Assembly: GCA_025054615.1 (NCBI GenBank)
Contig: JANWZO010000022.1
Coordinates: 1 to 39,532 of the forward strand
Source of the DNA: Kiritimatiellia bacterium
GTDB taxonomy: Bacteria > Verrucomicrobiota > Kiritimatiellia > CAIVKH01
DNA: 39,532 nt
Direction of reading: 5' to 3'
The translations under genes and the position numbers were made by a program. The notes beneath the pieces are model-generated. The model saw only the letters and a list, made by a program, of their open reading frames with translations, did not search any database and was not told the DNA's origin. Numbering within the stretch: the first letter of the stretch is position 1; each line of letters starts with the position of its first letter. Below, in pieces: positions 21,409 through 39,532 of the stretch.

Positions 21409-24400
21409 TTACGGAACCCGAATCCGAACGCGATAGAATTTGGCCGGTTCGGCCGGCCCGATCAAATTGGTGAGCGAACCGGAACCGGGCTGATCTACTT
21501 GTCCGGCAACGTTCGACCACACACCCGAGTGGAGTTCATCCGAGGCCTGCAACGTGTAAACCCGGCCCGTCGACGAATCGAACCAGACCTCCACTGTAGA
21601 TTCATCGAGCGAAACGGCCGTGACGGAAAATGCCGCGTTGGACGCATTCGGGTTGCTGTCGGCGATCCACTCTTCCAGGTTGGGTATTCCGTCTCCATCC
21701 GGATCGGCGGCATCGGCAGCGTGACCTGTATTTGAAGGCGTCCCAAAGTGCACCAGCCGCCATCGTTCAAGGTCGGTGTAGGCGGAAACGGGGAATATGT
21801 AGCCGTTCGCGTCCTGGTCGACCGCTCCGCCTTGGATGCGAATAAGGGATCGTTGCGCGTCGGTCAGGCCGTTGCGGTCTTTGCCGACTCGAAGGAATGA
21901 AGTCCCCACAGTGAAATTGGTGACCCACAGCACACCCGTCCAAGTTTCGCCCGTGGAAGCCGCCGCTTCCAGGCGCCCGCCGTTGAGGAACGAAAGAACT
22001 GAATCTGTCGATAGCCTGAGGCGACCGACGTGGGCTGTCCAGCCGTAGACGGACAGAAGACCTCCATTGAATAAGATGTCGCTGGTCCACGCCTCGTTGG
22101 CGCCAAGTCGAGTGATCCCCTGGCGAAGTTCCAGGACCCCTCGCGCATCGGCATACGGCGCCGAGAGGAGGAGATTTCCTGTTCCGCTCTTGATGAAACC
22201 GCCGCTGCCTGTGAGCCGGCGAGTCAGGGTAAACCAGTTGGTGGTCGGTACGCGGATTTGGGCGCCGCCGTTGCCAAGATTAAGGTCGCCGGCGCCGAGT
22301 TCGGCGCGAAGGATCATTCCGCTAACAACTTGGAGCGGTTCGAAAACCCCACCCGCCAAGACGAGGGCTGCGTTCGTGAGGTCGAGTCGGCCATTCGCGA
22401 AATTGGAGGAAAATCCGAGGATTCCGCCACGAATTTCGACATCGCCGACGACCCGCACGACGCCGCTCCAGCTCCCGACGAGCAAGCCGCCCGACTGAAT
22501 GATCAATTTGTCTTGTATCGTCAGCACAGCCCCGGTGCCTGCGCCGTGAAACCGATGACCGGAAACGGCGAAGGGAGCTGCGGAACTGATCACGAGGGAG
22601 GCAATCGTCCGCGGCCCATCCACGCGAAGCGAACCGCCGCCCTGCGTGATATGGATGAGATCATGCGGACCCGGAAACCGTCCTGTTGCATTCCACGTGC
22701 CGTTGCTCTCCCAAGGTCGATTGGTCACATTGGCGCTGGCGAAGTCGTAAACCGAAGTGACGGCCAGGGAGAAAAGGACCCGCTTTTCAGGCGCGTTCGT
22801 GTCATTACTCGTAATCGTCAGGATCGTGGGATAGATCTGACCGGAGAGCAGGCCGCTCGAAGTGAGCGAGAAAGCGAGGTCATGGAAAGCACTCGGCGAA
22901 ACAAGGCCGGTTGAAGATCCTTGGATGACGACCATGTCGGAGGGCTGACCGGGAACATCATAGAGCGTCTGAGGCGGCGGCAGAAACTCGATGGCTACCC
23001 CGCTTTCCGCGGTGGGCACCCGGTAGGCATGTGTGAGGCCGACCGAGGGCGGTCCCTGAAGACCGATGGTATAACCGCTTGTGGCGGCATCTGGAGATCG
23101 GAGAACGTTTTTATACTGGCAGATGATCCGGCCATCCCGTTTCAGAAGGGCCTGGAAGCTCATGCGAGCGATGCGGTCGCTGTAATAACAGACATCGTGC
23201 CATGTAACAGCGAAGGTGTCGGCGTCGACGCGGGCGTAATAAACCTGGCTCGTCCGCCCGATCAGATACAAATCATCCCACCACACCGCCAAGATGTCAT
23301 TCGACGCGGCCGTATTGGGCAGATGAAGATTTGCGTACTGTCCGACAAAGTTCGTGCCAAAGATGATCAGTCCGTTCGACGAGACTCGTATGCGCGACCG
23401 ATTGGTCCCAAAGTAGGGAAATTCAAAGCCGAGGGAAATGGTTCGAGAAACAAGGTCATCTCGATCGCTCGTATTGGGCGTCAATGTCCCGGAGCTGTTC
23501 TCGAATTCGGCCGTCGCCACGCCGGGGATATTGGTCAATTCCAGCCAGTCATAGCTTGGACCGCCGGGGTCGGTCGATGTCTGGACCAGATAATTCGTCG
23601 GCAATCGGGCGCTCCATGTGAGCTCGGCGCGACCGTCGTTGAAGATGCGGAAACTCGCCGAGCGAGAAGATGACGGGGGCAGAGCTTCGTAGAGCGCCGG
23701 CGCGCCTGCTCGGAGGATCGGTTGGCCGCCCTCGCCCCGTCCCCGAATCGCGAAGGTGTAGGCGAGATCCGGTGAAAAGTAATTGGACACGGTCACCATC
23801 GCAGCGTGAGTGGCCGCGGATGTCGGCGAGAAACGGATAGCGAATGTGGAAGAGCCGCCGGGCGGGATAGGCGAAAGCGGCTGATTGAGGACGGCAAATT
23901 GAGCCGCTCCCGGTCCGGAAAGCGACACGGGCGACGGTCCCGCGAGATAGAGGTAGCTCGTCGAATTGTTATTGCGAATCGTAAAGACGTGTTCAACCGC
24001 GCCGGTGGGGTCATACAATAGGGCAGACCCGAAATCCGTATGGTCCGATGGATCCGGGGTGGCATCCCCGTCGGCGATGGCGCGCCCGTTCCCGAAAATA
24101 ACCAACGGTTCGCCCGGATCCGCAGGCCCTCCCCAATCGTCATCTTCGATGGTCACAATCGCGGACGTGACGGCGCCCGCCGACGCGCCGAAGAGATCCA
24201 GTCGAATGGAAAATTCGTGACGTCCTTCATCGTAGGAATCGTTGACAATCGGAATCGCAATGATCCGCTCACCCCATTGCCCGGGTCCCCACTGGACCAC
24301 AGCCGACGCGCCGGTCGGGCCAAAGAAATCGTATTCCGCTGCCGCCGTGCCACTCACGCAGACCACTCGAGCGGACACGGTGCCTTGAACTCCGCCGACG

Positions 24401-27400
24401 CGTTCGACGATGACAGTGGCCGCGCCGGCTCCCTCGAGAAAGTTGTTGATGCGCGCTCTCCGGAATTGAATGTAACCGGAAGAGGGTTCAAACCCGCCCA
24501 GCGGAGTCCATGGCGATGTCGATGTATCGTAGACCGGGATGTTGCGGATCGTTTTTTGAGAGGCGTCGATCGACGCACCGGAAAAATCATTTCCGCGGTC
24601 AAATGTTCCCCAGGGCTGGCTGAATTCGAGCTGAACGCGGCGCCGATATCGCTGGTAGTCGCCGGGAACGATGTAGGCATTGTGAAGTCGAATCTCAAAG
24701 TACCAGTTCGAGGTCCCGGGTACCTGGAATGGTCCGGCCGTCGATACAGATTCTCCACTCAGTAATCCAACACCGGTTGCGGAACAGACCACGGCAGAAC
24801 CGGTAACGCCATCCGGCGTGAAGTAGTAGCGGAAACCGAGCGTATTGATTTCCCGCGGGGGCAGGCTAGCGCGGTTGTTCACAAAACATTGGATCACTCC
24901 ATTTGTATCTGCATAGGCCTCTACAAAAAACGACTCGACCCAATAATTCGTGCTTCGCGGGGTCCATGGGGGAAACGTCTCGATTGGCGCCCAGGTATTG
25001 GTGCTGCCGCGGGCGATGTTGCGAGCCAGAACGGTCAATAAGCCGCCAGAGTAGATAATGGGTTCCTGATGGCCATAGACGACGTTACTGGTCAAGGGTA
25101 CGTAAGCGGGATAGTAATCGCTGCCGTCCGGCCCCGGAGCCAATGCCCCCCACGGAACCGATGTATTCCAAGGAGCTTTATCGGCTGCGGGCGTTCCAAA
25201 GCCACCGTATTGGAACTGGGCGGCGCGATGATGCAGATTGCTCACCCAGCTCCGGTTTCGCGAGGCGTATCCGGCAAGGTAGGACAGTCCGTAGGGATTA
25301 TCGCCAAGTATGTAATCGAGTTGGTGGACCGGGCAGAGATTGGTTTTCGTGCCTTGGGTGTACGTGCCTGTGTAAAGAGCGACCAGATTCGAGCGTTGGA
25401 CGGCATCGGTATTATAGATCGAATCTGCCCATTCCAAAAGCGGCGGGGCCTGGTCCATCAGAGAATTGATATTCCAAGACGCGCCCGGACTACGGGAAAC
25501 GAAGCCGGCGGGTGTCGTGCGGGGATCGGTGGACAACTCGCGGGCATATAGCCAAAAATTCGCGTAGGCGTTGACCTCGGTCACAAATGGGGACAAGCCT
25601 GTATCGGCGGCGAGCAACGCATATGCGCCATTCTGTTCAAACCCCGACCGAAAATCAGACCAGTGCCGGTTGCGGTTTCGCGCATTACCCGGCTCGTTGT
25701 AGAGCGAAAGCGCGATGCCGATCCATTGGGTCGAATAACCGGGCGTTGACGCCGCGACTTCCGCACGATGCAACCAGGCCGCAGCGTAAAGCAGCCGGGG
25801 CCAGTAATTCGTCAAGCGGCCGGGATAATTCGTGATAGTCACCGGGGAACCGCTGGTCATTCGGCGGGTGGACGTGCTGGTATTGCGGTTGCTCAATCCC
25901 CAATTCATCGCCAGTCGCGCGGTAGCCAGGAGACCATCGGCATAGGCCTCATCGCCATATTCACGAAATGCAATCGACGAAGCTGCCATAGCCGCGGCCA
26001 CCGCGCCGGCGACATCCGCGCCTCCCACTGTCGCATCAACCCAGTACGAAGGGCGGATAGATTGTGGCACGCCCCCCACCGGCGTGTCGATTACCTCGTT
26101 GGGCACACCCACGGTTCGGTCGTTCACGGGAGCCGGGTCCAGGGGCGGAGAGTCGCGCAGCGCTCCCTTCCCACAGTAAATCCGTTCGATTGAGCCGGCG
26201 GAGTTCGTCTCGACAATTTTGAAAAAGTACTCGTTGATCTCCCGGAGACGATCCATCGCAATCCGGTACTGGTGAGTCTGAATAAACACCGGCCGATGCA
26301 TAACCAGGCTCCACGCCAGGAGGGACGCCCCGAATGCGTCGTTGCCCGTCCACACCATGCCATCGCCCGCATCAAACCAGCCGCCTGTCAGGTCTCGCCC
26401 CACGTCGGAGCCGTCTCGCAGGCAGGCGTCGCCCCGGTATTCGAGCCGGATGGTCGGCGGCAATCGCCCTGCCAGTTGTAATTCGTAGAATAGCAGGGCG
26501 GTTTGCAACGCGTAAGAATAGTTATGGCCGTTTGTCCACAGACTGCTGGCCGGCGGAGGGTTGGTCGCTGGCGGCGGAGGCGGCGGAGGCGGTGGCGGTG
26601 GAGGTGGCGGCGGTGGAGGTGGGAAGAAAGAGGGCGCCTTGATCATTTCCACACTGGGCGTGTTGTACCCGTGAGCATTTGCGCTCATGAACTGGATGGT
26701 CCCAAGGGTATCGTCGAAGGCGAACCGGTAGACGTACTGGTCCGAAATGGCCACCAGTTGGGTGTCGATCAAAACCACGTCGCGTGCGCGCGGACCCATA
26801 TCCCCGGTCGATGTGTTTTCCGTGGTGGAAAAGGCGAAGGCCTGGCTGAAGACGATGGTAGTCGATGCGATGGCCCCGGTCGCCGACATCCAGATGCCGT
26901 TGTCGCCGATCACGATCATGCGACCCAGCGGAGAAATATCGAGTCCCGTAAAATTCGAGGGGAAGGAGCCGGAAGCCGGAATGTTGGAGATGGAAATCAT
27001 CGACCTCAGGAAGCCATTGGTGGCATCAACTGTCGCCCGCCGGAGAAACGGCCCCGAAGAGCCGTTCATGAAAACATAATTCGTTCCATTGACCTCGCGG
27101 AACACGAAGTCATTCGCCTGCCAATTGCTAATCCCGGCATTCTGCATCGGCACCGACGCAAAATGGGCGCCATTGAAGGCGCTGACCCCAAAGTTCAGCA
27201 CATTCGAACCGCCGGCCGACCCCGCGCTCACGTAGACAAATCCGTTATGCCATCCCAACGGATGGGTATTGAAGCTACCCGTAGCGTCATAAACGTTCGT
27301 CGCGACAAAGGATCCGTTGGTGATCAAAATGGCATAAATGGCGCGGGCATTTGTTGTGTTGGCATTCAGGTCGTTTACAAAGAGAAAACCGTCAGTGCTT

Positions 27401-27579
27401 ACGGCCAGATTCCGAAATTGAGCTCCGGGTCGAATCAGGAGCGTTGACCACGTCGCACCGGCGTCTGAGGACCGCAAAATATTCGTCGAACGAACGGTCA
27501 GAAACAAATCATTGGCGGGTGCGCAAATGAAACTCGCAACCCACGTCACGAATCCAAGCCAAGCGACTCGCTTCTGCAT
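21409..27579 (-). CDS. Giant secreted glycoside hydrolase family 9 (cellulase-type) multidomain protein
   Basis: 2056 residues. Signal peptide (about 1-22); a beta-propeller/BNR-like N-terminal region (about 24-318, with SSDAGATWS); 18 consecutive prolines (320-337); and a GH9 catalytic domain (about 345-860) with DLTGGWFDAGD (near 399), LGDNPYGLSYLAGY, HHRAA (near 782) and the general-acid Glu in GHQEPIIYSGG (near 837). Then come a Calx-beta-like module (about 1040-1150, ending TIEDDD), an abnormal-spindle/choice-of-anchor-like module (about 1155-1280), a nidogen-like stretch (SNGLIIFGTNF), a beta-helix or autotransporter-like Gly/Asn region (about 1610-1900), a calcium-binding DPDGDGIPNLEEW (near 1958) and a C-terminal Ig-like module ending FYRVRI. 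It probably hydrolyses beta-1,4-glucan or a related polysaccharide outside the cell. The substrate is inferred; N- and C-terminal regions are described only by appearance. Confidence 0.85.
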   Translation of the reverse strand: MQKRVAWLGFVTWVASFICAPANDLFLTVRSTNILRSSDAGATWSTLLIRPGAQFRNLAVSTDGFLFVNDLNANTTNARAIYAILITNGSFVATNVYDATGSFNTHPLGWHNGFVYVSAGSAGGSNVLNFGVSAFNGAHFASVPMQNAGISNWQANDFVFREVNGTNYVFMNGSSGPFLRRATVDATNGFLRSMISISNIPASGSFPSNFTGLDISPLGRMIVIGDNGIWMSATGAIASTTIVFSQAFAFSTTENTSTGDMGPRARDVVLIDTQLVAISDQYVYRFAFDDTLGTIQFMSANAHGYNTPSVEMIKAPSFFPPPPPPPPPPPPPPPPPPATNPPPASSLWTNGHNYSYALQTALLFYELQLAGRLPPTIRLEYRGDACLRDGSDVGRDLTGGWFDAGDGMVWTGNDAFGASLLAWSLVMHRPVFIQTHQYRIAMDRLREINEYFFKIVETNSAGSIERIYCGKGALRDSPPLDPAPVNDRTVGVPNEVIDTPVGGVPQSIRPSYWVDATVGGADVAGAVAAAMAASSIAFREYGDEAYADGLLATARLAMNWGLSNRNTSTSTRRMTSGSPVTITNYPGRLTNYWPRLLYAAAWLHRAEVAASTPGYSTQWIGIALSLYNEPGNARNRNRHWSDFRSGFEQNGAYALLAADTGLSPFVTEVNAYANFWLYARELSTDPRTTPAGFVSRSPGASWNINSLMDQAPPLLEWADSIYNTDAVQRSNLVALYTGTYTQGTKTNLCPVHQLDYILGDNPYGLSYLAGYASRNRSWVSNLHHRAAQFQYGGFGTPAADKAPWNTSVPWGALAPGPDGSDYYPAYVPLTSNVVYGHQEPIIYSGGLLTVLARNIARGSTNTWAPIETFPPWTPRSTNYWVESFFVEAYADTNGVIQCFVNNRASLPPREINTLGFRYYFTPDGVTGSAVVCSATGVGLLSGESVSTAGPFQVPGTSNWYFEIRLHNAYIVPGDYQRYRRRVQLEFSQPWGTFDRGNDFSGASIDASQKTIRNIPVYDTSTSPWTPLGGFEPSSGYIQFRRARINNFLEGAGAATVIVERVGGVQGTVSARVVCVSGTAAAEYDFFGPTGASAVVQWGPGQWGERIIAIPIVNDSYDEGRHEFSIRLDLFGASAGAVTSAIVTIEDDDWGGPADPGEPLVIFGNGRAIADGDATPDPSDHTDFGSALLYDPTGAVEHVFTIRNNNSTSYLYLAGPSPVSLSGPGAAQFAVLNQPLSPIPPGGSSTFAIRFSPTSAATHAAMVTVSNYFSPDLAYTFAIRGRGEGGQPILRAGAPALYEALPPSSSRSASFRIFNDGRAELTWSARLPTNYLVQTSTDPGGPSYDWLELTNIPGVATAEFENSSGTLTPNTSDRDDLVSRTISLGFEFPYFGTNRSRIRVSSNGLIIFGTNFVGQYANLHLPNTAASNDILAVWWDDLYLIGRTSQVYYARVDADTFAVTWHDVCYYSDRIARMSFQALLKRDGRIICQYKNVLRSPDAATSGYTIGLQGPPSVGLTHAYRVPTAESGVAIEFLPPPQTLYDVPGQPSDMVVIQGSSTGLVSPSAFHDLAFSLTSSGLLSGQIYPTILTITSNDTNAPEKRVLFSLAVTSVYDFASANVTNRPWESNGTWNATGRFPGPHDLIHITQGGGSLRVDGPRTIASLVISSAAPFAVSGHRFHGAGTGAVLTIQDKLIIQSGGLLVGSWSGVVRVVGDVEIRGGILGFSSNFANGRLDLTNAALVLAGGVFEPLQVVSGMILRAELGAGDLNLGNGGAQIRVPTTNWFTLTRRLTGSGGFIKSGTGNLLLSAPYADARGVLELRQGITRLGANEAWTSDILFNGGLLSVYGWTAHVGRLRLSTDSVLSFLNGGRLEAAASTGETWTGVLWVTNFTVGTSFLRVGKDRNGLTDAQRSLIRIQGGAVDQDANGYIFPVSAYTDLERWRLVHFGTPSNTGHAADAADPDGDGIPNLEEWIADSNPNASNAAFSVTAVSLDESTVEVWFDSSTGRVYTLQASDELHSGVWSNVAGQVDQPGSGSLTNLIGPAEPAKFYRVRIRVP
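26569..26622 (-). repeat. Proline-codon tract (18 prolines) in the GH9 protein
   Basis: Fifty-four bases encode 18 consecutive prolines (residues 320-337) with mixed CCN codons (CCA, CCT, CCG), followed by ATN and three more prolines. It separates the N-terminal propeller-like region from the GH9 domain and will form a stiff polyproline rod. Such a run should stall ribosomes without elongation factor P. The GC-rich, purine-rich strand is also prone to length change. Confidence 0.9.
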
Positions 27580-36249: not shown

Positions 36250-37788
36250 ATGAACTGGGGTCATGCAGCCGCTCTGGCTATTGGGCTAGCTGCTGTCGCC
36301 ACTGGCGCGGATTGGCCTCAATTGCAGCGTGATGCCGCAAAATCCGGTTATCAGCCGGCGATGCGGATCGCGACCACGAATCGTCACGCAAACTCAACCC
36401 CCTACGGCGGTTATGGCACTGGCATCTGGGCATTTACTAATCGGTTTCTCTCTGGCCAGCCGGTCGTCGCCGGCGATCTGGTCGTCGTCGGCTCCCTCAC
36501 CAACCGCGTCTTCGCCCTCGATTTGACCAACGGCTCCATCCGCTGGTCCGCCGATGTCGGCAGCGCCGTCCTCAATTCCTGCGCCATCCACTCCGGACGC
36601 GTCATCGTCGCCACCCAATCAGGTTTGCTCATCGCTCTCAATCCTGCGAACGGCCAAACGCTCTGGACCTACCACGGCGCCCGCAAAGGCTACGCCGCCG
36701 CCCCCACTGTCGCCGACGGCGTCGTCTACATCGGCTCCAAGGACGGCCGCTTCCACGCCGTCGATGCCCTCACCGGCGCCACCCAGTGGATCTTCCAGGT
36801 CGGCGGACCGGCCGACACCGGCGCGGTGCGCGCGGCGATTCTGTGTTCGGCGGCGGTGCTGAGCAACCGCGTGTTTTTCGGCGCGGAGAACATGTACGCC
36901 TACGCGCTGGACCGCGGCACGGGGCAGCGGCTGTGGCGCCGGAAGCTGACCGGGCAATCGTTTGTCTTTGGGGCGGAAGTGGGGTCGGACGACGAGCGCG
37001 GCGGCGTCTCGGTCTCGGCCGGCTGGCCGGTCGCCTCCCGCCAAAATGGCGGCGTTGTGATATTCCGCACTCAGCCTGTCTACCCGTTCCACCGAAACCT
37101 TGAGATCGGCGAATGGATTATCGAGACGGCGACCGGCACGAACGGCATGGGCAATCCATTGGGCAATACAAACGCCTGGAGAATTGAACAGCGAGCCATC
37201 AGCGCATGGCTATCGAGCAACGCGCAAATCCGCTCGTTCTGGGAACTCGATCCTGCGACGGGCGCCGACAAGTACTCAGTCCCGATGCCGATTCTGTACA
37301 CGAGTGGATCAGGCGGCACCCCCGCGCCGCCGGTCGTGGACGACGTCAACAACCGCGCGTGGGTGGTCTTGCGTTCGGCCTACTCGCGCATCGACAGCTT
37401 CGGCATGGTTCGACAGTACGGGGAATTCGCCAAACTGCATCTCAACTTTGATCCCGCCATCTACACAAATCCGGCGCAGGGCCGCCTCGCCTTTACCTAC
37501 TTTGCCTGCCATGGATGGCCCGAGTGCATCACGGCATGGGGCGACATCCACAAGGTTTCGGACGAAGGGGAGGTTCTGACTGCCTGTGAAAACGCCCTCG
37601 TCTCCAGCACATGGGTCAATGAAGGCGGCTGGGACCTCGACGCCGAGCGCTCGTTCAACATCCGATACTACAGTTCGAACGATTTGGGCGAGGCCCCGCT
37701 GTACGGATCGAGCTGCGGCGCGGTCTTCGCCAACGGCTGGATCATCTTGCGCGACACGGTAGGAGTAAAGGGGTATGAGGCAAACTAG
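36250..37788 (+). CDS. Secreted PQQ-type beta-propeller repeat protein (cassette copy 1)
   Basis: 512 residues with a signal peptide (ALAIGLAAVATGA, cleavage before DWPQLQ). Four clear PQQ/WD-like blades follow: VVVGSLTNRVFALDLTNG, VIVATQSGLLIALNPANG, VYIGSKDGRFHAVDALTG and FFGAENMYAYALDRGTGQRL, each closing with a Trp (SIRW, TLWTY, QWIF, LWRR). The C-terminal half is degenerate and Asn/Trp-rich, with several Cys (ACHGWPECITAW). No PQQ-dehydrogenase catalytic residues are evident, so a binding or scaffold role is likelier than enzymatic activity. It overlaps the next gene by 14 bases. Another copy of its N-terminus begins at 39257. Codon use changes abruptly near 36826, and bases 36454-36528 are nearly identical to the second copy. 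No named family beyond the repeat is recognised. Confidence 0.8.
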   Translation: MNWGHAAALAIGLAAVATGADWPQLQRDAAKSGYQPAMRIATTNRHANSTPYGGYGTGIWAFTNRFLSGQPVVAGDLVVVGSLTNRVFALDLTNGSIRWSADVGSAVLNSCAIHSGRVIVATQSGLLIALNPANGQTLWTYHGARKGYAAAPTVADGVVYIGSKDGRFHAVDALTGATQWIFQVGGPADTGAVRAAILCSAAVLSNRVFFGAENMYAYALDRGTGQRLWRRKLTGQSFVFGAEVGSDDERGGVSVSAGWPVASRQNGGVVIFRTQPVYPFHRNLEIGEWIIETATGTNGMGNPLGNTNAWRIEQRAISAWLSSNAQIRSFWELDPATGADKYSVPMPILYTSGSGGTPAPPVVDDVNNRAWVVLRSAYSRIDSFGMVRQYGEFAKLHLNFDPAIYTNPAQGRLAFTYFACHGWPECITAWGDIHKVSDEGEVLTACENALVSSTWVNEGGWDLDAERSFNIRYYSSNDLGEAPLYGSSCGAVFANGWIILRDTVGVKGYEAN

Positions 37789-39244
37789 TAAAGACCATCT
37801 CGGCCGGATCCTCGCAGTAGCGCTTCTTCTTTTGCCGGCAATGCCGGCCACGTCGATCACGACAAACGATGCGCTTCGATATATCCGAGAAAAGAGGTGG
37901 GTCCAATATCCGCACAATCCGGCATCCGAAGACCTGCGCGAAGAGCTGGATTACGAAATCAATCGCATGATTGATCACTACGATGCCGGCGGTCACTTGG
38001 AGCCGGCGCTATTTTCCATCGGCATCACGGGCGTCTGGCTCCTGTACGGCTATCCCGGCGAGCAGGCCTATATCTTGGCCGACGCGCTGCCGTACCTGCC
38101 GACCTCCACGCAGGCTCGTGTTAAGGCGTACCTTTATCAGGAGATTCGAAATTATGACCCAACCGTCATCGGGTTTGAGCACTGCTCCGATGGTTGGGGC
38201 GCCTGCGAGATGACCGGTAATCGACGTGAGTTTTTCACGATTCCCACCTCGCCGAATCCGGAACCCTTGGTCGTCAATGTTTGGCCGCCGGCGTCCGTGC
38301 CGCCCGAGGGACTGTACATGATCTGGCGATACTGCGATGCCTCCGGCGATTGGGCCTTTATCAGCACAAACAATCCGCCCAGCGGTGACCGCTGGAATCG
38401 GATGTTGAATATGTTCAATGCCATCCCCAACCCGCCGACGCGCTATGGCCATATCGCGGCGGCCATCGGGATGGCTCGCATATGCATGCACTTTGGCATC
38501 ACCAACGGCCACCCCTACACCACGGCCGTGGCCCGCGTGCGAAGTGGCATGCTCGCCGGAACCAATTTCGATGCCTTCGTGCAAACCTCGTACACGAACT
38601 TCCTCACCGGCAGTCATGACTGGGCCTGGACGCCGTTTCATTACACCCGCCACGGACCCGTGGGCGCGATGATGGCCCCGGAAATCGGACGATTTTTGCG
38701 CGAATACGCACTGACCAGCGTGTACCGTCGCGTCACGTACAATCCCCTTGCGGGCCAGACGAACCAGCCCTACGCCATCGAGGACATTTGGCAGGGCTGG
38801 TATCTGACGCGCGGCCATTACATCCCTTTGATCCCGATCATGGGCTACTACGGCGAAAATCACATGGTGACGCCCGACACGCCGTGGGCCCTCTTCATGA
38901 CCCATGCGTGGATTTATAATGAATCAGGGCCGGAATTGCGGCGATGGCTGGATGCGCCCTACTGCATCGGCGACCTATTTCATATTCAGCGGCTGACGGC
39001 GACAATCGCCGCCTATAGCGAACCTGTCTGGAGCAGCGTGCAACCGCCGCTGATGACGCAGATCAGCCGAACCGCGGGCGGCATTTCGGTGAGCGCGACG
39101 GGCGAATCGGCGCCGTATCTAATTGAAGCCTCGGCCAATCTCGAGTGGTGGTCGCCGATTTTCACCAACACAGGGCCTTCCATCGCCGTTACCAACGCAG
39201 GGACCGCGCCGCTCCAATTCTTCCGCGCTAGGCCCGCTCCTTAG
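37775..39244 (+). CDS. Secreted, probably helical-toroid protein with C-terminal Ig-like module
   Basis: 489 residues. Signal peptide (ILAVALLLLPAMPATS). The body (about 25-420) is mostly helical, with paired aromatic and His-rich segments such as ALRYIREKRWVQ, LFSIGITGVWLLYGYPGE, YGHIAAAIGMARICMHFGI and DWAWTPFHYTRHGPVGAMM, suggestive of an alpha/alpha-toroid like those of polysaccharide-acting or prenyltransferase-fold enzymes, but I see no catalytic signature to name. The last 65 residues resemble the C-terminus of the GH9 giant (YLIEASANLEWWSPIF, final FFRARP). AGGAG lies ten bases before the ATG, which is inside the propeller gene. The next gene, a second propeller, begins 12 bases after the stop with AGGAGG. 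Function unknown; association with the propellers is by operon structure. Confidence 0.7.
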   Translation: MRQTSKDHLGRILAVALLLLPAMPATSITTNDALRYIREKRWVQYPHNPASEDLREELDYEINRMIDHYDAGGHLEPALFSIGITGVWLLYGYPGEQAYILADALPYLPTSTQARVKAYLYQEIRNYDPTVIGFEHCSDGWGACEMTGNRREFFTIPTSPNPEPLVVNVWPPASVPPEGLYMIWRYCDASGDWAFISTNNPPSGDRWNRMLNMFNAIPNPPTRYGHIAAAIGMARICMHFGITNGHPYTTAVARVRSGMLAGTNFDAFVQTSYTNFLTGSHDWAWTPFHYTRHGPVGAMMAPEIGRFLREYALTSVYRRVTYNPLAGQTNQPYAIEDIWQGWYLTRGHYIPLIPIMGYYGENHMVTPDTPWALFMTHAWIYNESGPELRRWLDAPYCIGDLFHIQRLTATIAAYSEPVWSSVQPPLMTQISRTAGGISVSATGESAPYLIEASANLEWWSPIFTNTGPSIAVTNAGTAPLQFFRARPAP

Positions 39245-39256
39245 GAGGCTCATCCC

Positions 39257-39532
39257 ATGCTTTGGCAGCTCATCGTATTGACCTTTTTTGTGGCGTTCCC
39301 TGCGCTTGCCGCGGACTGGCCGCAGTTGCAATGCGACGCGCAAAAGTCCGGCTATCAGCCGGCCATGTCGATCACCACGTCTAATCGTCATGCCAACTCA
39401 ACACCCTTCGGCGGCTACGGCGCTCCGTTGTGGCTCTTCACCAACCGTTTTCTCTCCGGCCAGCCGGTCGTCGCCGGCGGTCTGGTCGTCGTCGGCTCGC
39501 TGACCAACCGCGTCTTCGCCCTCGAGCTGACC
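39257..39532 (+). CDS. Secreted PQQ-type beta-propeller repeat protein, cassette copy 2 (truncated by window end)
   Basis: 92 codons are visible and the frame is open at the right edge. A signal peptide (IVLTFFVAFPALA) is followed by DWPQLQ, KSGYQPAM, NRHANSTP, GGYG and TNRFLSGQPVVAG, matching the propeller gene at 36250 position for position. TAGGAGG, overlapping the stop of the previous gene, is an excellent ribosome binding site eight bases from the ATG. Hand alignment with copy 1 gives about 73% DNA identity over bases 39311-39457 and about 93% over 39458-39532. It shows that the propeller-helical pair is a repeating unit; how many copies follow is outside the window. Confidence 0.85.
   Translation, partial: MLWQLIVLTFFVAFPALAADWPQLQCDAQKSGYQPAMSITTSNRHANSTPFGGYGAPLWLFTNRFLSGQPVVAGGLVVVGSLTNRVFALELT

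Follow-up and report, generated by a model that had tools for sequence, protein, structure and literature searches.

Proteins that combine a beta-propeller with an all-helical part have been described in the PVC superphylum, where membrane coat-like proteins carry an N-terminal propeller and a C-terminal alpha-solenoid in a single chain; one member has been located at vesicle membranes (Santarella-Mellwig 2010, PMC2799638). The other described proteins closest to the genes considered here are the PQQ_2 and BamB-like propellers (PF13360, TIGR03300), the (alpha/alpha)6 sugar enzymes (GH88, AGE epimerases, GH81, GH127/146, and PL17), and the DUF5060 glycosidases with solved structures (PDB 9gmj and 9gpc).

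The locus outlined here resembles each of these in part. It has the domain order of the coat-like proteins, with the propeller before the helical part, but the helical part is a predicted toroid, the two parts are mostly encoded by separate genes, and their products begin with signal-peptide-like stretches. Its first propeller shares PQQ-type repeat blades (approximately residues 55-240) with PQQ_2 and BamB-like propellers, but falls far under the BamB cut-off and has a non-repeat region present, among the propellers scored, only in those paired with a helical protein. The helical protein has its predicted fold class, secretion, and sugar-enzyme neighbours in common with (alpha/alpha)6 enzymes, but has no detected sequence relation or significant structural match to them. 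Finally, the glycosidase that probably lies downstream shares DUF5060 and a GH-A-like catalytic part with 9gmj and 9gpc, from which it differs by additional CBM4_9, PKD, and TSP3 modules, a long insert, and its association with a propeller and a toroid. A search of the open-access literature returned no description of such a propeller-helical pair. The degradation of polysaccharides by uncultured Verrucomicrobiota matters ecologically, and for many of the proteins that these bacteria secrete no role has been assigned. The helical family, rare and without a name, is linked to a specific propeller in every case found, in one of them by fusion, and this makes it a concrete candidate for a new sugar-degrading enzyme made of two parts.

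Gene layout and probable continuation

The window (i.e. the whole stretch of 39,532 nucleotides that was analysed) is the entire contig C22 of genome G000, the assembly of which comprises 2.48 Mb in 51 contigs and is 95%-complete. The features at its right end, and those on a second contig of the same assembly (C30), are as follows:

36250..37788, + strand: propeller 1, secreted PQQ-like beta-propeller protein of 512 residues (ORF call and family match)
37775..39244, + strand: helical protein, secreted, 489 residues, unnamed family (ORF call and predicted fold)
37775..37788, + strand: 14-bp overlap of the propeller 1 stop region with the helical start (also 14 bp in G038 and G295)
38225..38227, + strand: codon for R151, a residue invariant among the nine family members
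38681..38683, + strand: codon for E303, an invariant acid within a PE motif and a candidate active-site residue (nine-member comparison)
38972..38974, + strand: codon of D400, invariant acid and candidate active-site residue (nine-member comparison)
39243..39248, + strand: AGGAGG, overlapping the stop codon of the helical gene and probably the ribosome-binding site of propeller 2 (sequence)
39257..39532, + strand: propeller 2, first 92 residues, open at the contig end (ORF), C-terminus probably on C30
C30, 15564-15831, - strand: probable C-terminus of propeller 2, fitting the propeller cut at the C22 end
C30, 11910-15554, - strand: DUF5060 glycosidase gene, 3' of the propeller 2 piece

A previous reading of this DNA from its sequence only (hereafter, the sequence-only reading) had given the reading frames, their lengths, the 14-base overlap, and the 12-base gap between the helical gene and the third ATG, and all of these proved exact. 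It had also assigned signal peptides to all three proteins, with which the hydrophobic N-terminal stretches seen by hydropathy in these proteins, and in the downstream glycosidase, are consistent. An overlap of identical length (14 bp) is present in G038 and G295, at approximately 65-74% protein identity, which makes the arrangement more than chance. A promoter and terminator scan gave no signal exceeding shuffled background, and a plasmid search gave no match. Elsewhere in the window (21409-27579, - strand) lies the gene for another large sugar-degrading protein, of 2056 residues, with matches to GH9 cellulase and to Calx-beta and NIDO-like domains.

The sequence-only reading interpreted the restarted propeller as the beginning of another unit in a tandem array of propeller-helical cassettes interrupted by the contig end, and proposed to extend the sequence rightward and count the units. 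Such an array would account for a propeller that begins 12 bp past the helical gene, and assemblies can break at tandem repeats; the DNA identity of the two propellers does climb toward the C22 end, which could account for the break. The probable continuation, however, contains no further unit. The sole other propeller piece in G000 (residues 425-508) occupies the extreme end of C30 (15831 bp); C22 breaks off at propeller residue 92 and C30, reversed, starts at approximately residue 425, so that the two ends fit one gene of which approximately 330 residues are missing from the assembly. By this fit of sequences, C30 most likely continues C22. On C30, a gene for a secreted glycosidase of 1214 residues, and not a helical gene, begins 9 nt after the propeller stop. 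The helical gene has a single match in the 95%-complete assembly, a second copy being absent, and relatives carry one propeller and one helical gene, in some cases as a single propeller-helical-glycosidase operon. Because only the propeller recurs, we rejected cassette amplification in favour of a duplicated propeller and regard the tandem array as very unlikely. The G000 layout is most likely propeller-helical-propeller-glycosidase, derived from a propeller-helical-glycosidase ancestor.

Propellers 1 and 2 are 76% identical at the N-terminus and only 67% identical at the C-terminus, where propeller 2 is no nearer to propeller 1 than to orthologues in other genomes; with this pattern, the duplication is not datable. 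Just before the contig end, the two propeller genes reach approximately 92% DNA identity (36440-36530 versus 39440-39532), far above the identity at their starts, a possible trace of local gene conversion between them.

Pairing of propeller and helical genes across genomes

The sequence-only reading had proposed a paired extracellular system, to be followed up by a search for co-occurring homologous pairs, and had stated that the proposal would be undermined if most helical homologues lacked a neighbouring propeller. The opposite was found. Close homologues of both proteins occur in the same four of 388 genomes of the phylum (G000, G038, G172, and G295) and are always adjacent. Profile searches of Verrucomicrobiota genomes, which were drafts, reached more distant members, giving nine helical genes: one in each of these four genomes, four in G132, and one in G020. 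All nine, down to approximately 22% identity, are linked to a propeller, eight having it immediately upstream (in two of the eight across a scaffold gap) and one being fused to it. The four separate G132 pairs stand at 22-26% identity; two of these have 4-bp overlaps, and two contain scaffold gaps that make the spacing unreadable. The natural fusion in G020 (L032:6387-9293, - strand) encodes a PQQ-like propeller followed by the helical domain in one polypeptide and overlaps a second propeller ORF of 781 residues, which adjoins a DUF5060 glycosidase.

Propeller-like stretches number 7 to 15 in the three genomes with most matches, among thousands of genes, and one to three elsewhere, from which we estimate chance adjacency at approximately 1% per locus or less. 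Judged by these sequence comparisons, the pairing is real and old. Searches of the class of the window's genome and of that of G132 found no additional members, and a scan of 84,980 species with two short peptide patterns found only the three close relatives. Partner co-divergence was left unused (r 0.98 over nine pairs, with no signal among the divergent ones, in which identities are saturated at 20-30%).

Propeller 1 is a PQQ-like beta-propeller by its match to PQQ_2 (PF13360; E 3e-31, 109.3 versus a cut-off of 27.6 bits). Assignments to BamB (111.5 versus a TIGR03300 cut-off of 285.2 bits) and to PQQ-dependent alcohol dehydrogenase (67.9 versus a TIGR03075 cut-off of 480 bits) were rejected. 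Its repeats are followed by a pair-specific non-repeat region: leave-one-out profiles of this part recovered paired propellers (E 2e-16 for G020 and 8e-9 to 2e-4 for G132) and none of the unpaired propellers scored (E at least 0.2), three unpaired loci (C255 of G132 and C108 and C79 of G050) having gone unscored for lack of a usable ORF.

Predicted fold of the helical protein and its glycosidase neighbours

As the sequence-only reading had surmised, the 489-residue protein belongs to no recognised family, with no match at E<=1 among Pfam or NCBIfam models, nor at E<=10 among PDB sequences. It is predicted to consist of an (alpha/alpha)-toroid (approximately residues 30-420) and a C-terminal beta domain (approximately 424-489) that is FN3-like in Foldseek. 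The AlphaFold2 model of the window protein is mediocre (pTM 0.63); that of the toroid domain of a G132 homologue, approximately 25% identical to it, reaches pTM 0.79 and pLDDT 72 with approximately 12 helices. The better natural Foldseek matches of this homologue model are mostly (alpha/alpha)6 sugar enzymes (GH88, AGE epimerase, GH81, GH127/146, and PL17), none of them significant at E<=0.001 (best E 0.07, TM at most approximately 0.5); TPR and designed-repeat solenoids give TM of approximately 0.15-0.25. R151, W184, W207, E303, W342, and D400 are invariant in all nine members. The modelled fold makes it probable that the helical protein is a carbohydrate-active enzyme with an (alpha/alpha)6 toroid, from a family not yet described; by sequence, it matches no Pfam, NCBIfam, or PDB family that would place it in a known (alpha/alpha)6 CAZy family. 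Assignment through distant proteins of G253 and G039 was abandoned, as these share a partial segment only and neither has a family or convincing PDB match, and a C-terminal sorting domain common to the helical protein and the glycosidase was not significant in hhalign.

The C30 glycosidase is clan GH-A-like, contains CBM4_9, PKD, DUF5060, and TSP3 modules, and aligns in two stretches with 9gmj/9gpc (E 4e-32). N814-E815 and E914 (in N-E and WGE motifs) are invariant in six homologues. Its sequence thus qualifies it as a DUF5060, clan GH-A glycosidase in which these motifs would hold the catalytic acid/base and nucleophile. The simpler operon propeller-helical-glycosidase is present in G038 and G172, of the same family as G000; no other sugar-enzyme gene was recognised beside the G038 operon. 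G295 retains the propeller-helical pair without an adjoining glycosidase, which lies in another contig region. The G132 pairs have adjoining or nearby genes for a SASA esterase, GH39, and GH10 (L035), GH4 (L036), and DUF2961 (L049). In G050 (L033:1241-7143, + strand), a 732-residue propeller resembling the 781-residue one of G020 overlaps the glycosidase gene by 4 bp, and no helical gene was found; in that family, the glycosidase may be served by a propeller partner of its own.

Proposed function and alternatives

What is observed is the order of the genes, the conserved coupling of propeller and helical protein, a single natural fusion, the presence of sugar-enzyme genes nearby, and the conserved acid motifs of the glycosidase. 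The function that we favour on this basis, and consider probable, is that of a secreted polysaccharide-degrading module, of which the window would encode the 5' part of the operon. The toroid would be the carbohydrate-active enzyme, and the PQQ-like propeller its obligate, dedicated partner, presumably in physical complex with it, binding the substrate or bracing the toroid. The propeller is duplicated in G000, with the second copy, if the contigs are joined as proposed, directly upstream of the large DUF5060/CBM/PKD clan GH-A-like glycosidase, which would be a co-expressed depolymerase acting jointly with the pair on a putative polysaccharide substrate. The scaffold-plus-enzyme alternative that the sequence-only reading had entertained thereby gains support as probable, with the toroid as the presumed catalyst. 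A more specific proposal, that propeller and toroid constitute an obligate two-subunit enzyme founding a new carbohydrate-active family, with the propeller completing the active site and the G020 fusion as its single-chain form, is tentative and, in our estimation, rather doubtful.

PQQ-like propellers often serve as scaffolds. This, the modelled FN3-like domain at the C-terminus of the helical protein, and the small number of invariant polar residues across the nine members would also suit a non-catalytic pair for surface glycan binding or adhesion, in which the toroid would have a structural role and the chemistry would fall to the glycosidase alone. The invariant R151, E303, and D400, with W184, W207, and W342, seem more pocket-like than scaffold-like, and pairs also occur in sugar-enzyme loci without a DUF5060 glycosidase; neither point is decisive, and we consider a non-catalytic pair unlikely. 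Less plausible still, and indeed most improbable, is that the pair represents the PVC membrane coat-like architecture, here divided between two genes and in G020 joined in one. The order of propeller and helices, the occurrence in the PVC superphylum, and the union of both parts in one chain in the G020 homologue agree with it. The known members, however, each consist of one chain whose solenoid is built of stacked helices (PMC2799638), whereas the window genes are separate and the best natural matches of the helical model are closed toroids, solenoids fitting poorly; signal-peptide-like starts and sugar-enzyme neighbours suggest export and work on glycans.

Two further proteins of approximately 1,100 residues (L048:6604-9894 and L050:7223-10450, both + strand), without a Pfam or NCBIfam family match, have a partial helical segment (e.g. 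TLYALWAYARCSGDWE) in common with the helical family and, judging by that segment, are possibly distant toroid glycosidases.
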